A stretch of DNA of 64,000 nt from Polynucleobacter ibericus (GTDB lineage Bacteria; Pseudomonadota; Gammaproteobacteria; Burkholderiales; Burkholderiaceae): assembly GCF_018687955.1 (NCBI RefSeq), contig NZ_CP061309.1:1297564-1361563 (forward strand), written 5' to 3'. Positions within the stretch are counted from its first letter, which is position 1; every line of letters starts with the position of its first letter. Shown one piece after another: positions 544 through 12,280 of the stretch. Both the position numbers and the translations under genes were made by a program. The notes below the pieces were generated by a model. That model searched no databases, was not told where the DNA came from, and saw only the letters and a program-made list of their open reading frames with translations.

Positions 544-1386
544 TTATTGGGGTTTTTGGGTAAAAACGACCCTCTCAGGGGCGTTATAGATCTCGAAGTG
601 TTTACCGGAACAACGGGAGAGGATGGTGAGATTCGTCTTGCGCGCCAACTCCAGACCCATCAAGGTCACCCCTGAACGGGTTAGCAGGAAGGGTATGCCC
701 ATTTGAGCCCCCTTAATGACCATCTCCGAGGTTAAGCGTCCAGTGGTAAAGAAAATCAATTCCTTACCCTGTTTATTGGCTAACCACATGAGCCCAGAAA
801 TTGAGTCGACCGCATTATGACGGCCAACATCCTCAATAAAATGCAAGAGGCGCACCCCATCCTTGCCATCTCGCTCAAAAACAGCGCAGGCATGAACTGA
901 GCCAGACTTCTTATAAATCGAATCATGGGTCCGTATAGAGTCGATCAATGTAACTATTGCCTCCTGGGATAGTGCCGGACCTTCGGGAAGCTGAATCGAA
1001 TCCATCTCTTCGATCAAGCCACCAAACATGGTCCCTTGGCCGCAGCCTGTCGTTACGACCCGCTTACTCGTCAGGGCATCAATATCAACCGTACTTCGAC
1101 GAGTTTTGACAGCAGCAGAATCCGTCTCCCAATCTACTTGAATGCTCTCAATATCATCCGGGGACTCTACGAGACGCTGATTACGTAAATAACCCAGGAC
1201 CAAGGCTTCTGGAGCGCTTCCTAGGGTCATCAGTGTCACGACTTCACGTTTATCCAGATAAATGGTTAGAGGGCGCTCACCAGGAATATGGGTCCTTTTA
1301 AGGCGGCCCATTTCATCCATGACCTCGACCTCATGCACCACAGGCACTGAAGCGTTAGACATCTGAATGTTTGGTTTTGCTGCCAT
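544..1386 (-). CDS. fdhD: Formate dehydrogenase accessory sulfurtransferase FdhD
   Basis: FdhD passes sulfur from a cysteine desulfurase to the bis-MGD molybdenum cofactor before it is inserted into formate dehydrogenase; it acts in the cytoplasm. The 280-residue protein has the FdhD core, including TTGCGQGT around C115, HACAVF, an EDVGRHNAVD motif and the TSEMVIKGAQMG region. Only the first cysteine of the E. coli CxxC pair is present (C115-G-Q-G118). No formate dehydrogenase subunit is in the window, so its client is elsewhere. The oxalate genes 4 kb away would produce formate, which gives it a plausible setting. It is divergent from metG. Confidence 0.93.
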   Translation of the reverse strand: MAAKPNIQMSNASVPVVHEVEVMDEMGRLKRTHIPGERPLTIYLDKREVVTLMTLGSAPEALVLGYLRNQRLVESPDDIESIQVDWETDSAAVKTRRSTVDIDALTSKRVVTTGCGQGTMFGGLIEEMDSIQLPEGPALSQEAIVTLIDSIRTHDSIYKKSGSVHACAVFERDGKDGVRLLHFIEDVGRHNAVDSISGLMWLANKQGKELIFFTTGRLTSEMVIKGAQMGIPFLLTRSGVTLMGLELARKTNLTILSRCSGKHFEIYNAPERVVFTQKPQ

Positions 1387-5467: not shown

Positions 5468-6400
5468 CTACAGCGTAAAGAACTGCCCTACTTCGAGATT
5501 TAACTCTTTAGCTAATTCAGCGCCAGTAACCTTACCCGCAGACCCTTTAGCCTTAAGGACTTCAATCTGCCCACCATGACAGGCGATAAAAAAAGAATCT
5601 AAAGTAATCTGAGTCACTTCACCAGGCTTACCTTTGACATCACCAAATGTCGCGGCTACATGCTTGTGGCAGTCGTATATCTGGACTTTTTGCTCACCAA
5701 ACTTTGTCCATGCACCGGGTGCAGGATTGCAAGCACGAATGAGGTTATAGATTTGACTGATGTGGCTTGCCCAATGAATCTGAGCAGCATTCGCATCAAA
5801 CCAACCTTCGTAGTTGGCTTGGGATTCATCTTGTACTATTTCTTGGTGCTTGCCTGCGACTACTAAGTCAGCAGCCTCAAGCAATGCCTTAACGCCTATC
5901 GGGAATAGATGATCAAAGTAGATTTTTCCTAGTGTGTCATTAGGTCTAATGGTTACTTCTTTTTGCAAGATTACTGCGCCCTCATCCAAGCCATCGGATG
6001 GGCGGAAGATCGTTAAACCAGTCTTCCCCTCACCCAAGGCAATAGCCCAATTAATGGCACTCGGGCCACGGTATTTAGGCAGCAAAGAGGGATGGTATTG
6101 AATGGTTCCATGTTTTGGAATCTTGCAGAGCTCTTGCGGCACAAACTGAATGACATAAGCCATCACACAGATATCCGCATTGCTATCAATCAAGGCCTGA
6201 GCGGCTTCAGGACTCTTGAGGGAGGCAAACTGCAAGGGATTTAAACCCCTTGCTAGGGCAACTTCTTTTAAGACTTCTGGTTTGCTTGATTTGGGATTAT
6301 CGGGAGGACAGAAGACGGCGACTACTTCATCGCCGCGATCTAAAAAAGCCTCTAAAGCAGCTTTACCAAAATCCGCACTCCCAATCAAAGCAACCCGCAT
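5468..6400 (-). CDS. Stand-alone formyltransferase-fold protein, 10-formyl-THF hydrolase-like
   Basis: A 310-residue protein with a Rossmann formyl-transferase N domain and a C-terminal OB-like domain. The active-site segment YHPSLLPKYRGPSAINW contains H103, and D139 lies in SDGLDEGAVI. The residue two before the histidine is Q101, where methionyl-tRNA formyltransferase has the catalytic Asn of its NxH motif. YHPSLLP, a GLDEG segment and the PGAW motif resemble the N-terminal hydrolase half of 10-formyl-THF dehydrogenase (ALDH1L) more than Fmt. A likely reaction is release of formate from, or formyl exchange with, 10-formyl-THF. The start is one base from the stop of the CoA-transferase gene, so they are co-translated. 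The substrate is inferred. Confidence 0.75.
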   Translation of the reverse strand: MRVALIGSADFGKAALEAFLDRGDEVVAVFCPPDNPKSSKPEVLKEVALARGLNPLQFASLKSPEAAQALIDSNADICVMAYVIQFVPQELCKIPKHGTIQYHPSLLPKYRGPSAINWAIALGEGKTGLTIFRPSDGLDEGAVILQKEVTIRPNDTLGKIYFDHLFPIGVKALLEAADLVVAGKHQEIVQDESQANYEGWFDANAAQIHWASHISQIYNLIRACNPAPGAWTKFGEQKVQIYDCHKHVAATFGDVKGKPGEVTQITLDSFFIACHGGQIEVLKAKGSAGKVTGAELAKELNLEVGQFFTL

Positions 6401-6401
6401 C

Positions 6402-7649
6402 TTAGATCACCTTATCGTGACGTAATGCAATCAATTCATCAGTTGAGTAACCTAACTCACTAAGAATTTCATCAGTATGCTCACCGAGCAATGGCGAACG
6501 AGTCACATCAGTTGGGCTATCAGACATCTTGATTGGATTACCAACGGTAAGATACTTGCCGCGTATGGGGTGATCCACTTCAACCACAGTTCCAGTTGCA
6601 CGTAATGCAGGCTCTTCAGCAATCTCTTTCATGGACAGAATTGGGCCACATGGAATATCGTATTTATTCAATACGTCCATCACCTCAAACTTCGTCATCG
6701 TCATGGTCCACTTTTCGATCTCGCCGAAAATTTCCATGAGGTGTGGCAAGCGTGCCATTGGTGATGCAAAACGCACATCAGTAATCCAATCTTCACGACC
6801 GATTACTTTGCAAATTGCTTCCCAAACTGGAGCCTGAACGATCACATACATATAGGCATTTGGATCCTTTTCCCAGCCTTTGCATTTCACAATCCAGCCT
6901 GGCTGACCACCGCCAGAAGCATTGCCTGCTCGGGGTACAGAGTCGCCGAACTCACCGTTCGGGAACTGTGGATACTCTTGCATGAGGCCAACACGCTCTA
7001 AACGCTGTTGATCACGCAACTTCACACGGCACAAGTTCAATACTGCATCTTGCATCGCTGCCAATACTTTCTGGCCACGACCAGAGTGAGTACGTTGATA
7101 CAGAGCAGTCACAATACCAAGCGCTAAATGCAAACCAGTTCCGCTGTCGCCGATTTGCGCACCAGTCACCATTGGAGGGCCATCATCAAAACCAGTGGTT
7201 GATGCAGAACCGCCTGCGCATTGCGCAACGTTCTCATACACTTTGCAATCTTCGTATGGACCAGGGCCAAAGCCTTTTACAGAAGCCATGATCATCATGG
7301 GATTGAGCTCTTGAATACGCTCCCAAGAAAATCCCATACGATCCAGGGCGCCTGGCGCAAAGTTTTCAACTAAAACGTCGCACTCTTTAATCAAGCGCTC
7401 CAGAATCTCTTTACCTTTTTGGGTTTTGGTATTTACGGTGATAGAACGCTTGTTATGGTTCAACATCGTGAAATACAAACTGTCGGCATCAGGAATGTCG
7501 CGCAATTGACCACGTGTTGCATCCCCTTCGCCTGATTTCTCTACTTTGATAACGTCCGCACCAAACCAAGCCAGTAACTGAGTACAGGTTGGGCCTGATT
7601 GAACGTGCGTAAAGTCGAGGATTTTGACCCCTTCTAGTGCTTTTGCCAT
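6402..7649 (-). CDS. Formyl-CoA transferase paralog (class III CoA-transferase), diverged copy
   Basis: A class III CoA-transferase of 415 residues, strongly similar over its whole length to the canonical copy at 8324-9574. The catalytic aspartate is kept (D168 in IGDSGTG), as are the N-terminal DFTHVQSGP and the [13 protein letters not shown] segment. The glycine loop that closes over the active site reads NASGGGQ (S245) instead of NAGGGGQ, and flanking positions such as FDDGPPM also differ. It may use another acyl donor or acceptor than formyl-CoA/oxalate. It is followed after one base by the formyl-hydrolase-like gene, and a separate transcript from the oxc-frc pair is likely. Confidence 0.85.
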
Positions 7650-7789: not shown

Positions 7790-8218
7790 CTATGTCTGAG
7801 GATTTTCAAGATCAGAGAGTCGCTTTTTGAGGGCTCTTTCTTGGGCAAAGCGCTCGGTGTCATCCCGAATGATCGCCACCACCCCATTAGCCTTGCCAGA
7901 GGCATCAAATAGCATCCCAACGGTAAAAGCAATCGAAAGTGTTCCGCCATTTTTATGCTTTGCTGGCACCTTCAGTAAAGATGTGCCGTAACGAGTTGTG
8001 CCAGTCGCCATGGAATGGCTGTAGCCCTCATTGTGCTTTTGAAGTTGACGCTCAGGAACAATGAGATCTAGTTTCTGACCAAGCGCCTCTTCTTCTGAAT
8101 AGCCAAAGATTCGAGTGGCAGCTGGATTCCATAGAATGATTTTTTCATGGGCATCAGCAACTACAACGGCATCTCCAACACACTCTATCAGCTGCTGTAA
8201 ATCAACGCTTGTTTTCAT
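7790..8218 (-). CDS. Single PAS-domain sensor protein
   Basis: A 142-residue protein that is almost only one PAS domain: GDAVVVADAHEKIILWNPAA at the start, IFGYSEEEALG, then the IIRDDTERF end followed by a short coiled-coil tail. No output domain (kinase, GGDEF or HTH) is present. The stretch around H62 (KHNEGY) can be aligned with the region holding the haem-ligand histidine of FixL-type PAS domains, but the other FixL pocket residues are not clearly kept. It sits between two formyl-CoA transferase genes, suggesting a sensory role for the oxalate locus. The ligand is unknown. Confidence 0.85.
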   Translation of the reverse strand: MKTSVDLQQLIECVGDAVVVADAHEKIILWNPAATRIFGYSEEEALGQKLDLIVPERQLQKHNEGYSHSMATGTTRYGTSLLKVPAKHKNGGTLSIAFTVGMLFDASGKANGVVAIIRDDTERFAQERALKKRLSDLENPQT

Positions 8219-8323: not shown

Positions 8324-9574
8324 TTAAACTGCTTTAGCTGTATGCAACTTAGCGATGTCATCGGCACTATAGCCAAGGTCAGCCAATACTTCGTCAGTGT
8401 GCTCACCTAACACTGGTGATGGACCAACTTCGATTTCCAAATCAGAGAACTTGATTGGGCTACCGATAGTTAAGTACTTACCACGTACCTTGTGATCAAC
8501 TTCAACAATAGAACCGCTCTTACGCAAGTCTGGTGAAGCAGCTAATTCTTTCATTGAGAGGACTGGAGCACATGGAATATCGAACTTGCGGAGAATGTCC
8601 ACAGCCTCGTACTTGGTCTTGTCTTTGAGCCAATCTTCAATGGTTGCGAAGATATCAAAAATCTTGTCTTGACGAGCTTCAGCAGTCATATATGCTGGAT
8701 CAGTTGCCCACTCTGGTTTGCCCAAAGCTTTAGTAATTGGCTCCCAAGCATGACCTTGAATGGTGAAGTAGATGTATGCGTTTGGATCTGTTTCCCAACC
8801 CTTACACTTCAATACCCAACCTGGCTGACCGCCACCACCAGCGTTACCGCCACGTGGAACTACATCAGTGAATGAACCGTGTGGGTACTGTGGATACTCT
8901 TCCAAGTAACCAACTTTGTCCAAACGTTGTTGATCGCGCAACTTCACGCGGCACAAGTTCAATACAGCGTCTTGCATTGAGCAAGATACTTTTTGACCCT
9001 TACCAGTCTTAGCGCGCTGCATCAAAGCAGTCAAGATACCGATTGCCAAGTGCATACCAGTATTGGAGTCACCCAAAGCAGCAGCAGAAACAGTAGGAGG
9101 ACCATCCCAGAAGCCAGTTGTTGAAGCAGCTCCACCGGCACACTGAGCAACGTTCTCATACACTTTTAAGTCTTCATATGAGTGGCCATCGCTAAAACCT
9201 TTAACTGAAGCCATGATCATCTTTGGGTTCAATTCTTGGATACGCTTCCAAGAGAAGCCCATACGATCCAAAGCGCCTGGACCAAAGTTCTCAACCATTA
9301 CGTCAGAAGTTTTGATCATCTTCTCTAAAACTTCTTTACCTTCTTGAGTCTTGGTATCCAAAGTCAAAGAACGCTTATTGCCGTTCAGCATAGTGAAGTA
9401 CAAAGCATCTGCGCCAGGAATATCGCGCAATTGGCTACGAGTTACGTCGCCAGAGCCAGGACGCTCAACTTTAATTACGTCAGCGCCATACCAAGCCAAT
9501 AACTGAGTACAAGCAGGTCCTGCCTGAACGTGTGTGAAGTCAATAATACGGATACCGTCTAATGGTTTAGTCAT
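8324..9574 (-). CDS. frc: Formyl-CoA:oxalate CoA-transferase
   Basis: Transfers CoA from formyl-CoA to oxalate, giving oxalyl-CoA and formate. The 416-residue sequence closely follows known Frc/YfdW proteins: DFTHVQAGP at the N-terminus, catalytic D169 in ALGDSNTG, and the intact glycine loop GGGGQ at 246-250. A strong ribosome site (AAGGAG) precedes the ATG. It lies 82 bases downstream of oxc on the same strand and ends at a clear terminator, so oxc-frc is an operon. Together they run the oxalate decarboxylation cycle. This copy looks canonical, unlike the paralog at 6402-7649. Confidence 0.96.
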
Positions 9575-9656: not shown

Positions 9657-11366
9657 TTATTTCTTAGCAGCTGCAGTAGATGGGTTCAAATTCGTTAAGC
9701 GTCCACTCTCAGTGCCTGCAGTTTCATCAATAACAGCATTGATGAGAGCTGGTTTACCGGCAGCAATTGCTTCTGTTAATGCCGCCTCTAATTCTGCTGG
9801 GGTAGTTACGTAGTAACCAACACCACCAAATGCTTCAATCATCTTGTCGTAACGCGCATCTTTAACGAACACAGTAGGAGCAACATCAGCACCGCCAGTT
9901 GGGTTTACGTCAGTACCGCGGTAAACGCCATTGTTATTGAAAATAACTGTTGTGATTGGCAAGTTGTAACGGCAAACTGTTTCAAGTTCCATGCCGCTAA
10001 AACCAAAAGCGCTATCGCCCTCTATAGCTACTGTGGGTAAGCCACTGGTTACTGCAGCACCAATCGCATAACCCATACCGATACCCATAATGCCCCAAGT
10101 ACCGGAGTCAAAACGCTTACGTGGTTTGTACATATCCACGATTGCACGGCAATAGTCGAGTGTATTTGCACCTTCATTTACCAAGTTCACATCTGGGTTC
10201 TTCTTGATCACATCACGAATGACACGCAACGCGCCATGGAAGTTCATTGGGTTTGCTTCTTTGGCCAATGTTTCTGCCATCTTCGCAGTGTTCTTGTCTT
10301 TCTTCTCAGTGATCGCAGCGATCCACTCAGCGCTTGGCTTAGGAACAGCAGAAATCCCTTTTAACAATTCACTAACACATGAACCAATATCACCAATCAA
10401 TGGTGCTGCAATTTGTACGTTGCTATCCACTTCGTTTGCTTGAATATCGATTTGGATAAATTTCTTAGGCTCTTTGCCCCAAGTCTTACCCTTACCGTGC
10501 GCGAGCAACCAGTTCAAACGTGCGCCGACCAATAAAACTGCATCAGCTTCAGCCAATACAAATGAACGCGCTGCAGAAGCAGATTGCGGATGGTTATCTG
10601 GCAACAAACCTTTAGCCATCGACATAGGCAAGTAAGGGATACCTGATTTTTCAACCAAGTCACGAATCTCTTTATCAGCTTGAGCATAAGCAGCGCCCTT
10701 ACCAAGGAGAATCAATGGACGCTTAGCGCCCTTCAATACATCTAATGCGCGAGCAACTGCATCAGCTGCTGGGATTTGACGTGGAACTGGATCAATTACC
10801 TTAAAGATAGATTTCTTGGCTTCTTCAACAGGCATTGTTTGAGCAAGTAATTGAGCTGGTAAGTCTAAATACACGCCACCTGGACGACCAGAAACTGCAG
10901 CACGGATTGCACGTGCGAAACCAATACCGATATCTTCAATGTGATTAATACGATAAGCTGCTTTGCAATATGGCTTAGCTGCATTGAGCTGATCCATCTC
11001 TTCGTAGTCACCCTGTTGCAAGTCAACGATTTCACGCTCACTAGAACCAGAGATCAAAATCATTGGGAAGCAGTTCACAGTTGCATTTGCAAGTGCTGTC
11101 AAACCATTCAAGAATCCTGGTGCAGAAACTGTCATACAGATACCAGGCTTTTGTGTCATATAACCAGCAATCGCTGCAGCATTACCTGCATGCTGCTCAT
11201 GACGGAAACCGATGAAGCGCAAGCCCTCGGCCTGAGCCAAACGACATAAGTCAGTAATTGGAATACCAACCAGGCCGAAAATTGTATTAAGGTCATTTGC
11301 CTTCAAGGCGTCAATGACGAGATGGAAGCCATCCGTTAGTTGTGTGTTTTGGTTATCTGTTGTCAT
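9657..11366 (-). CDS. oxc: Oxalyl-CoA decarboxylase
   Basis: Thiamine-diphosphate enzyme that splits oxalyl-CoA into formyl-CoA and CO2. The sequence matches the Oxalobacter enzyme closely along its length: [52 protein letters not shown], and the ThDP/Mg motif [14 protein letters not shown] ending in NNNGVYRG. I chose the ATG at 11366 (569 residues, [15 protein letters not shown]) because it matches known N-termini; a GTG at 11396 would add ten residues. It is the first gene of an oxc-frc operon. The next gene upstream is a Crp/Fnr-type regulator, and two palindromes lie in between. Confidence 0.97.
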
Positions 11367-11518
11367 AGAAATTTTGATAAAAATTGCGGGTTCCACTCTT
11401 TAAGAGTTGATGCAATCTAGCTTTCGCTAACGTCTCCAATGTAGTTATTAATCGCACTACGGGTTTTATATCCCGCTTAGGCTGAACTGAATATTAGGCT
11501 TGGGCAGGGGGTTCATCA

Positions 11519-11571: not shown

Positions 11572-12189
11572 CTAGACAAAGAGCTCTTTATGCTTTGTTT
11601 TGAGCCGACTCAAAGTCTCAGGGGAGAGGTTGAGGTAAGCAGCTAGTTCCTTTTTAGGGAGAAGCTCAAATAAGTCCTCGTATTTACGTAAAAAACGCTC
11701 TACTCGGCCTGGAGCATCAAGCATATGCAAGGTAATGGTATGAGCCATGATTTCACTCATGAGGCGCATGACCTCAAACTCAAAGCTCTCCTTGAGGGGC
11801 TTGTGCTGCTCAAGGAATTCCGCCCACTTCTTCATTGGCATCCGAGCCACGCGAGCCTTAGTCACACAGGCAATACTGTAAGGGGCGGCAGTTTTTAAAC
11901 GCCAAGCGGCATAACTAGTTTCAATATCTTTTTCGATGGCAAAACGCAAAATCATCTCTTTTGCATCCGCACTGGAAACAATGCGCTTGAGGATTCCATC
12001 CAGAACGAAATATTGCTCCATCTGGTGATCACCCTGGTGCAACAGGATTTCGGATTTTTTCAGGTCAGCAATCTCTAAATGGCGCTCTAAATCTGCCATT
12101 GCTGCAGGATCTAAGCTTTTTAAGACCGAGTTTTGACTTAACTGCAAACGAATCAGGTTTTTTTCGGGGTGCTTATCTAATGCCGTCAT
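11572..12189 (-). CDS. Crp/Fnr-family transcriptional regulator
   Basis: A 205-residue regulator with an N-terminal cyclic-nucleotide-binding-like fold (ILLHQGDHQMEQYFVLDG at 48-65), a long dimerisation helix and a C-terminal winged HTH (LPKKELAAYLNLSPETLSRL). The recognition helix has E191, S194 and R195, the triad by which FNR reads TTGA half-sites. The cysteine cluster that binds Fe-S in FNR is absent; only C108 is present. The frame is open to a TTG at 12204, but the ATG at 12189 has a GGAG ribosome site. It sits directly upstream of oxc on the same strand and probably controls it; the effector is unknown. Confidence 0.9.
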   Translation of the reverse strand: MTALDKHPEKNLIRLQLSQNSVLKSLDPAAMADLERHLEIADLKKSEILLHQGDHQMEQYFVLDGILKRIVSSADAKEMILRFAIEKDIETSYAAWRLKTAAPYSIACVTKARVARMPMKKWAEFLEQHKPLKESFEFEVMRLMSEIMAHTITLHMLDAPGRVERFLRKYEDLFELLPKKELAAYLNLSPETLSRLKTKHKELFV

Positions 12190-12280
12190 AAATCTTTGCT
12201 CCAAGACTGTCTATTGTAGGCTTTTTTACCCCTTGGAGCCTTGGATTCCTACTTCAAGCAGTCTAGATCCGCTAGAATAA

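Follow-up and report, generated by a model that had tools for sequence, protein, structure and literature searches.

Two formyltransferase-fold domains are described as passing a formyl group to a thiol. In the sections of PMC8748788 covered here, the hydrolase domain of ALDH1L (FDH-Nt) hands formyl to the thiol of 4'-phosphopantetheine, and in those of PMC12134894 and PMC6802093 the N-domain of HypX moves it from 10-formyl-THF to CoA, the only transfer between formyl-CoA and formyl-THF that we met in the partly covered open-access literature. For the FDH hydrolase, the covered part of PMC4388273 proposes a thiol as the first attacker of the formyl group, considers the isolated domain probably thiol-dependent and reports that changing Ile104 to Asn drops hydrolysis to <10%. 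On the oxalate side, the known system is the classic oxc-frc cycle, represented in E. coli by yfdXWUVE; the E. coli yfd region that we inspected carries no annotated gene of the type discussed below. Within the open-access literature, as far as its covered portions extend and with subscription papers mostly outside its scope, we found neither a formyl-CoA:THF formyltransferase nor an oxalate operon containing an fmt-like gene, and we found no open-access full text joining oxalyl-CoA decarboxylase with methionyl-tRNA formyltransferase.

The locus described here lies in a 64,000-nucleotide stretch of Polynucleobacter ibericus DNA (the window), where five genes on the minus strand are ordered oxc-frc1-PAS-frc2-FTF. 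We use FTF for a formyltransferase-fold protein of 310 aa (5468..6400) that carries PF00551 and PF02911 only and stands alone, with no fused domains. The evidence for its place in formyl-CoA metabolism and for a pocket of the folate type is good. The oxalyl-CoA decarboxylase OXC (9657..11396, minus strand, 579 aa), the presumptive source of formyl-CoA, scores 990.1 bits on TIGR03254 against a cut-off of 739.4, and the formyl-CoA transferases FRC1 (8324..9574, minus strand, 416 aa) and FRC2 (6402..7649, minus strand, 415 aa) score 724.9 and 731 bits on TIGR03253 against 504.2. Because all three are far over their curated cut-offs, we read the locus as a normal oxalate cluster with one extra gene, FTF. 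A single base (6401) separates the frc2 stop codon from the FTF start, both frames being open, just as the initial annotation had it. Between frc1 and frc2 lies a PAS-domain protein of 142 aa (7790..8218, minus strand, PF00989) that recurs in many Polynucleobacter loci; it has no match in L031, L034, L064 and L069-L071 and so seems dispensable. Upstream of oxc, a CRP-like gene whose product has a cyclic-nucleotide-binding domain (11572..12204, minus strand, PF00027) is a possible regulator of the cluster; it has relatives in 24/58 FTF loci, and in many non-Polynucleobacter loci these stand on the opposite strand to oxc. Elsewhere in the window, 544..1386 (minus strand) presumably encodes an FdhD-like formate dehydrogenase accessory protein, judging by the look of its sequence.

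The same annotation took FRC2 for a diverged formyl-CoA transferase, which it is not. FRC2 is an ordinary Frc, and its score over the Frc cut-off, together with E. coli YfdW as its best PDB match, rules out a special CoA-transferase. It shares 66% identity with FRC1 and differs from it in the glycine loop, which reads SGGGQ in FRC2 and GGGGQ in FRC1 and E. coli Frc. The SGGGQ loop occurs in 63/64 Frc proteins adjoining FTF. It is also common without FTF (8/10 oxc loci of FTF-less genomes: L124, L126-L130, L132 and L133), which rules it out as a mark of FTF-linked Frc; it marks a second Frc type instead.

The association of FTF with frc extends well beyond this strain, contrary to the single-strain confinement that would have spoken against the first reading. 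A profile search of genome contigs with an alignment of eight proteins returned at least 553 FTF relatives, and we examined the neighbourhoods of the best 80 of these plus six further loci (86 in total), counting frc as directly upstream when it lay within 400 bp on the same strand and setting aside loci with <600 bp of upstream sequence. On this measure, frc is directly upstream of FTF in 28/28 evaluable Polynucleobacter-type loci (L044-L072, one of the 29 set aside) and in 40/56 evaluable other loci (one of 57 being too short; L074, also Polynucleobacter, is included here). The loci come from several phyla, their sources including Polynucleobacter, Betaproteobacteria, Hylemonella, Methylobacterium, Terriglobia/Acidobacteria and a Paracoccaceae plasmid. 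The remaining 16 of the 56 comprise one with frc 1,447 bp upstream, seven with frc elsewhere in the stretch and eight without it. In frc-less L083 and L086, FTF is followed by the transporter-type genes known from the flanks of the oxalate cluster in relatives, and in L085 the stretch ends just past FTF; neither frc nor oxc was found in the fetched stretches of L039, L042, L073, L106 and L116. As for what adjoins FTF in these, it stands beside accA in L039 (L039:8199-10307), whose genome holds oxc elsewhere, near modA in L073, and among unrelated genes on MAG contigs in L106 and L116. In six Methylobacterium loci, frc adjoins FTF, the stretch contains no oxc, and nearby lies a homologue of a gene that is over the oxalate/formate antiporter cut-off.

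FTF also co-occurs with oxc at the level of genomes. Across 398 Pseudomonadota genomes (FTF at E<=1e-45, Oxc at E<=1e-150), FTF was present in 9 and Oxc in 29, with Oxc in 8/9 FTF genomes versus 21/389 FTF-less ones (Fisher p=2.5e-9). Within the genus, 43 of 61 genomes have both, 12 neither, 3 FTF only and 3 Oxc only (p=1e-7); relatedness among the genomes (this genus supplies 4 of the 9 with FTF) makes these p-values optimistic. The distribution is patchy: at E<=1e-40, FTF occurs in 18/200 genomes of the window's family, all of them in its own genus (18/22 there). Many oxc genomes have no FTF (21/29 in the Pseudomonadota set and 3/46 in the genus, namely G605, G608 and G589, at 79%, 93% and 99% completeness), which makes FTF an optional accessory. 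The genus genomes with FTF only are G607, which holds a partial gene, and the drafts G611 (78% complete) and G635 (90% complete). In oxc-less G607, only FTF residues 84-286 are left (G607:C1:942421-943029), as if the gene were decaying after the loss of oxc. In G555, FTF and oxc share a contig at a distance of about 164 kb.

The exceptions to this pattern are telling. In G475, the ninth FTF genome of the 398, no Oxc match reaches the cut-off. One contig carries FTF, which shares 99% identity with Nisaea proteins, next to fhs; a second contig has a ThDP enzyme immediately before an frc that is 73-74% identical to FRC2. Five Acidobacterial loci (L093, L095, L112, L114 and L118) have a ThDP enzyme before frc-FTF where oxc would be expected, with 90-97% identity to the L118 enzyme, and in L118 these genes are preceded by fhs. 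None of these ThDP enzymes (the Acidobacterial five and L140:6205-7923) is over a curated cut-off, their best models being acetolactate synthase PRK05858 (441-465 vs 587), 2-hydroxyacyl-CoA lyase (342 vs 600) and Oxc (199-221 vs 739). Judged by sequence, the ThDP enzyme could be a so far overlooked oxalyl-CoA decarboxylase or a lyase; 2-hydroxyacyl-CoA lyases are described as liberating formyl-CoA in the covered part of PMC7176365. Since the enzyme adjoins frc where oxc is missing, formyl-CoA is likely to be the common partner.

A plasmid locus adds metabolic context. The Paracoccaceae plasmid La6 has the gene order oxc-frc-FTF-fhs, and within about 46 kb its annotations include glyA, hprA, folD, ppc, formate dehydrogenase, pyruvate phosphate dikinase, dihydrofolate reductase, two succinyl-CoA-ligase-like pairs, Tct transporter parts and a ketopantoate reductase, the last of which matched no family. 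The neighbour of glyA is an aminotransferase that carries the annotation of a hydrogenase subunit; its nearest family is BhcA, whose cut-off it does not reach (592.9 vs 650). We take this gene set to resemble a serine-cycle route able to use both glyoxylate and methylene-THF, in which a conversion of formyl-CoA to 10-formyl-THF would be useful. The La6 ligase pair, like that of L089, passes the succinate-CoA ligase cut-off and fails the malate-CoA ligase one, so we call the locus serine-cycle-like on the basis of all its annotated genes together. In Betaproteobacteria, the ligase genes found near FTF gave the same result and were dropped as serine-cycle genes. In the window's genome we found no FTHFS match and no glyoxylate carboligase over the cut-off (best 348.8 vs 711.2 bits), alongside a FolD domain match and a formate dehydrogenase elsewhere in the genome (727.4 vs a cut-off of 666.25). 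With a FolD domain and no FTHFS, this genome could have in FTF its oxalate route into folate C1 metabolism.

In the explanation that we favour, Oxc would produce formyl-CoA, the bulk of which Frc would recycle (formyl-CoA + oxalate -> oxalyl-CoA + formate); FTF would divert a part, transferring its formyl group from the thioester to N10 of THF and releasing CoA and 10-formyl-THF. Catalysis would rely on His103 and Asp139 in a pocket resembling the one in the ALDH1L hydrolase domain, and a FolD-type enzyme could then yield methylene-THF for serine, thymidylate and purines, the C1 pool being filled from oxalate without the ATP spent by formate-THF ligase. Formyl transfer from CoA to THF should be energetically reasonable. 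That FTF transfers formyl between CoA and THF, in whichever direction, seems to us probable. Its assignment as a formyl-CoA:tetrahydrofolate 10-formyltransferase working from CoA to THF is the most economical reading but more tentative, with a shade under an even chance of being right, its substrates, direction, mechanism and flux split being what we infer. Competition between FTF and Frc for formyl-CoA counts against the proposal, because such a drain would call for some other activation of oxalate at high flux. So do the oxc genomes that have no FTF, the eight frc-less loci, the failure of the fold search to tell FDH-Nt from Fmt, the long-branch warnings and weak FTF clade of the tree, and the sub-cut-off acetolactate synthase model as best match of the ThDP enzyme.

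The same enzyme could run in reverse, turning 10-formyl-THF and CoA into formyl-CoA and THF and thereby priming or refilling the CoA carrier, so that Frc could begin to activate oxalate where formyl-CoA is absent. Oxalate activation needs priming, which is the role proposed for E. coli YfdE in the covered part of PMC3720670; the direction is that of HypX, as described in the covered parts of PMC12134894 and PMC6802093; and the fhs gene beside FTF in some loci could provide the 10-formyl-THF. We nevertheless regard this direction as unlikely, given the missing FTHFS in the window's genome and a La6 gene set that appears assimilatory.

The active site bears on the proposed transfer from CoA to THF and on two hydrolytic alternatives. 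FTF carries the motif I100-Q101-Y102-H103-P-S-L-L-P and has D139 within DGLDEG, which confirms the YHPSLLP motif and the three residues H103, D139 and Q101 singled out in the first reading of this DNA. Across 88 distinct family members (the window's protein, 58 diverse loci and 29 Polynucleobacter-type loci), H103 and D139 are invariant, as are all the counterparts of FDH Phe89, His106, Ser108, Arg114, Asp142 and Tyr200 (FTF F86, H103, S105, R111, D139 and Y197; each 88/88). As the FDH residues include those that contact folate, folate binding is expected. K13, R22, K147 and K290 are conserved and specific to FTF, and may be contacts for CoA. Position 101, two before the His, is Gln in 85/88 and Cys in 3/88; in the comparison proteins it is Asn in all Fmt controls (6/6) and also in PurN, PurU, ArnA and the PRK06988-like protein; two ALDH1L hydrolase domains have Ile there, and one HypX has Val. 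Both relatives described as thiol-formylating in the covered literature, FDH-Nt and HypX, thus share with FTF the absence of Asn. We read this link between Asn loss and thiol chemistry from sequence as a correlation over few families, and PurU, a hydrolase, keeps the Asn.

If water rather than THF accepted the formyl group, FTF would be a formyl-CoA hydrolase (EC 3.1.2.10), releasing formate for formate dehydrogenase. The activity has no known gene according to the covered part of PMC10192776, the genome does hold a formate dehydrogenase, and FTF shares a clade with a hydrolase and lacks the Asn found in Fmt, ArnA, PurN and PurU. An enzyme of this kind would hardly account for the folate-contacting counterparts kept in 88/88 members, would make formate that Frc yields already and would leave the linkage to fhs unexplained; we think it improbable.

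Somewhat less plausible still is the reading of FTF as a 10-formyl-THF hydrolase giving formate and THF. This would set up a futile cycle with an adjoining fhs and would leave the tie to frc unexplained, and the genome has a PurU-like gene elsewhere, even though the nearest solved relatives are named hydrolase domains and, in the covered part of PMC4388273, Ile104 of FDH favours hydrolysis and Asn, which FTF also lacks, lowers it. Release of formate from formyl-folate, the second option raised in the initial annotation, is the less likely one on account of the separate PurU-like gene and of the relatives that place FTF beside fhs, whose product forms formyl-folate.

Sequence and predicted structure differ in how clearly they place FTF, the putative CoA-to-THF transferase, among its relatives. 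By sequence, its best PDB match is the ALDH1L hydrolase domain 2bw0 (E=1.6e-47; about 37% identity over 247 residues), followed by Fmt 5uai (3.7e-37), ArnA 5j63 (9.4e-32) and, more weakly, HypX 6j1h (1.3e-10), with whose N-domain it shares 22% identity over 192 residues. In a tree built from 32 proteins, FTF and FDH-Nt join in a clade at 100/100, apart from Fmt and ArnA, and FTF is only weakly set off from FDH-Nt as a clade of its own (88/67), in both cases with long-branch warnings. HypX was left out of this tree because of its very long branch (6.61); when included, it joins FTF and FDH-Nt at 83/54. The AlphaFold model of FTF is confident (pLDDT 94.0, pTM 0.88), and a fold search with it finds FDH-Nt, ArnA and Fmt about equal (TM up to 0.92 for Fmt vs 0.86 for FDH-Nt, and 0.69 for HypX) and does not separate FDH-Nt from Fmt. 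The earlier statement that FTF is closer to the hydrolase half of ALDH1L than to Fmt thus holds by sequence and not by predicted fold.

FTF scores 159.7 bits on the Fmt model TIGR00460, under its cut-off of 201.5, and 19.4 bits on the PurU model TIGR00655, under 285.95. The genome has five PF00551 genes, one of which is over the PurN cut-off and three others of which were assigned, by reading of the sequence rather than by an NCBIfam scan, as Fmt, PurU and ArnA/PRK06988-like. The Fmt loop motif [AS]GRG occurs in 0/88 FTF and 4/6 Fmt, a weak test since PurN matches it too. Databases naming FTF relatives mostly call them methionyl-tRNA formyltransferase. A search matched 172 plasmid records, and among the five examined FTF was present only in H1 (La6), the other matches (H2, H4, H17 and H20) being annotated or read as Fmt. 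On these scores FTF is not a standard Fmt, and the curated model argues against Fmt activity on Met-tRNA. It is very improbable that FTF is an Fmt, or a formyltransferase for a sugar nucleotide or other acceptor, merely travelling with frc, since the names of its close relatives and its equally Fmt-like fold are set against its sub-cut-off score, the other genomic copy that reads as Fmt, the missing loop motif and an frc adjacency that recurs across phyla.

The link between formyl-CoA and the folate pool suggested in the initial annotation thus stands as the best-supported reading, through gene context in several phyla, co-occurrence with oxc, phylogeny and the thiol chemistry described for the nearest families, with its formate-release alternative less likely. 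More broadly, we tentatively propose, at slightly less than an even chance, that a widespread stand-alone family carrying the name Fmt is a dedicated formyl-CoA:THF formyltransferase and an ATP-free link of oxalate to the C1 pool, perhaps serving 2-hydroxyacyl-CoA breakdown in some Acidobacteria and Nisaea-type bacteria and delivering oxalate carbon as glyoxylate plus methylene-THF in La6-type systems. If this is true, formyl-CoA would have a second, energy-saving fate besides Frc, and oxalate users without formate-THF ligase could take C1 units from oxalate through an unrecognised shortcut into biosynthesis. A large family misnamed as tRNA formyltransferase would gain a testable function, and synthetic biology would have a way to connect formyl-CoA with folate C1 metabolism at no cost in ATP. 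FTF would also add a candidate to the enzymes that consume formyl-CoA, among which the hydrolase is so far without a known gene.

Set against the known systems, FTF shares some features with each and differs from each in others. Fmt resembles it in two-domain architecture and fold (TM 0.84-0.92), from which FTF differs by its score, its replaced Asn and the separate Fmt-like copy in the same genome. The ALDH1L1 hydrolase domain (PDB 2bw0, 1s3i and 4qpd) belongs to the same clade and has the same catalytic His, Asp and Ser and the same folate-pocket residues; ALDH1L1, however, is fused to carrier and aldehyde dehydrogenase domains that FTF lacks, has Ile104 where FTF has Gln or Cys, and does not share the linkage of FTF genes to frc and oxc. 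The HypX N-domain, which sets the precedent, in the parts of its literature cited above, for exchanging formyl between CoA and 10-formyl-THF, likewise keeps the His and Asp and has lost the Asn, but HypX has an enoyl-CoA-hydratase-like second half and keeps formyl-CoA bound, whereas FTF has no such half and sits with oxc and frc. Compared with the classic oxc-frc cycle, finally, the window's oxc and both frc genes are ordinary members, to which the locus adds FTF as a possible second exit for formyl-CoA.
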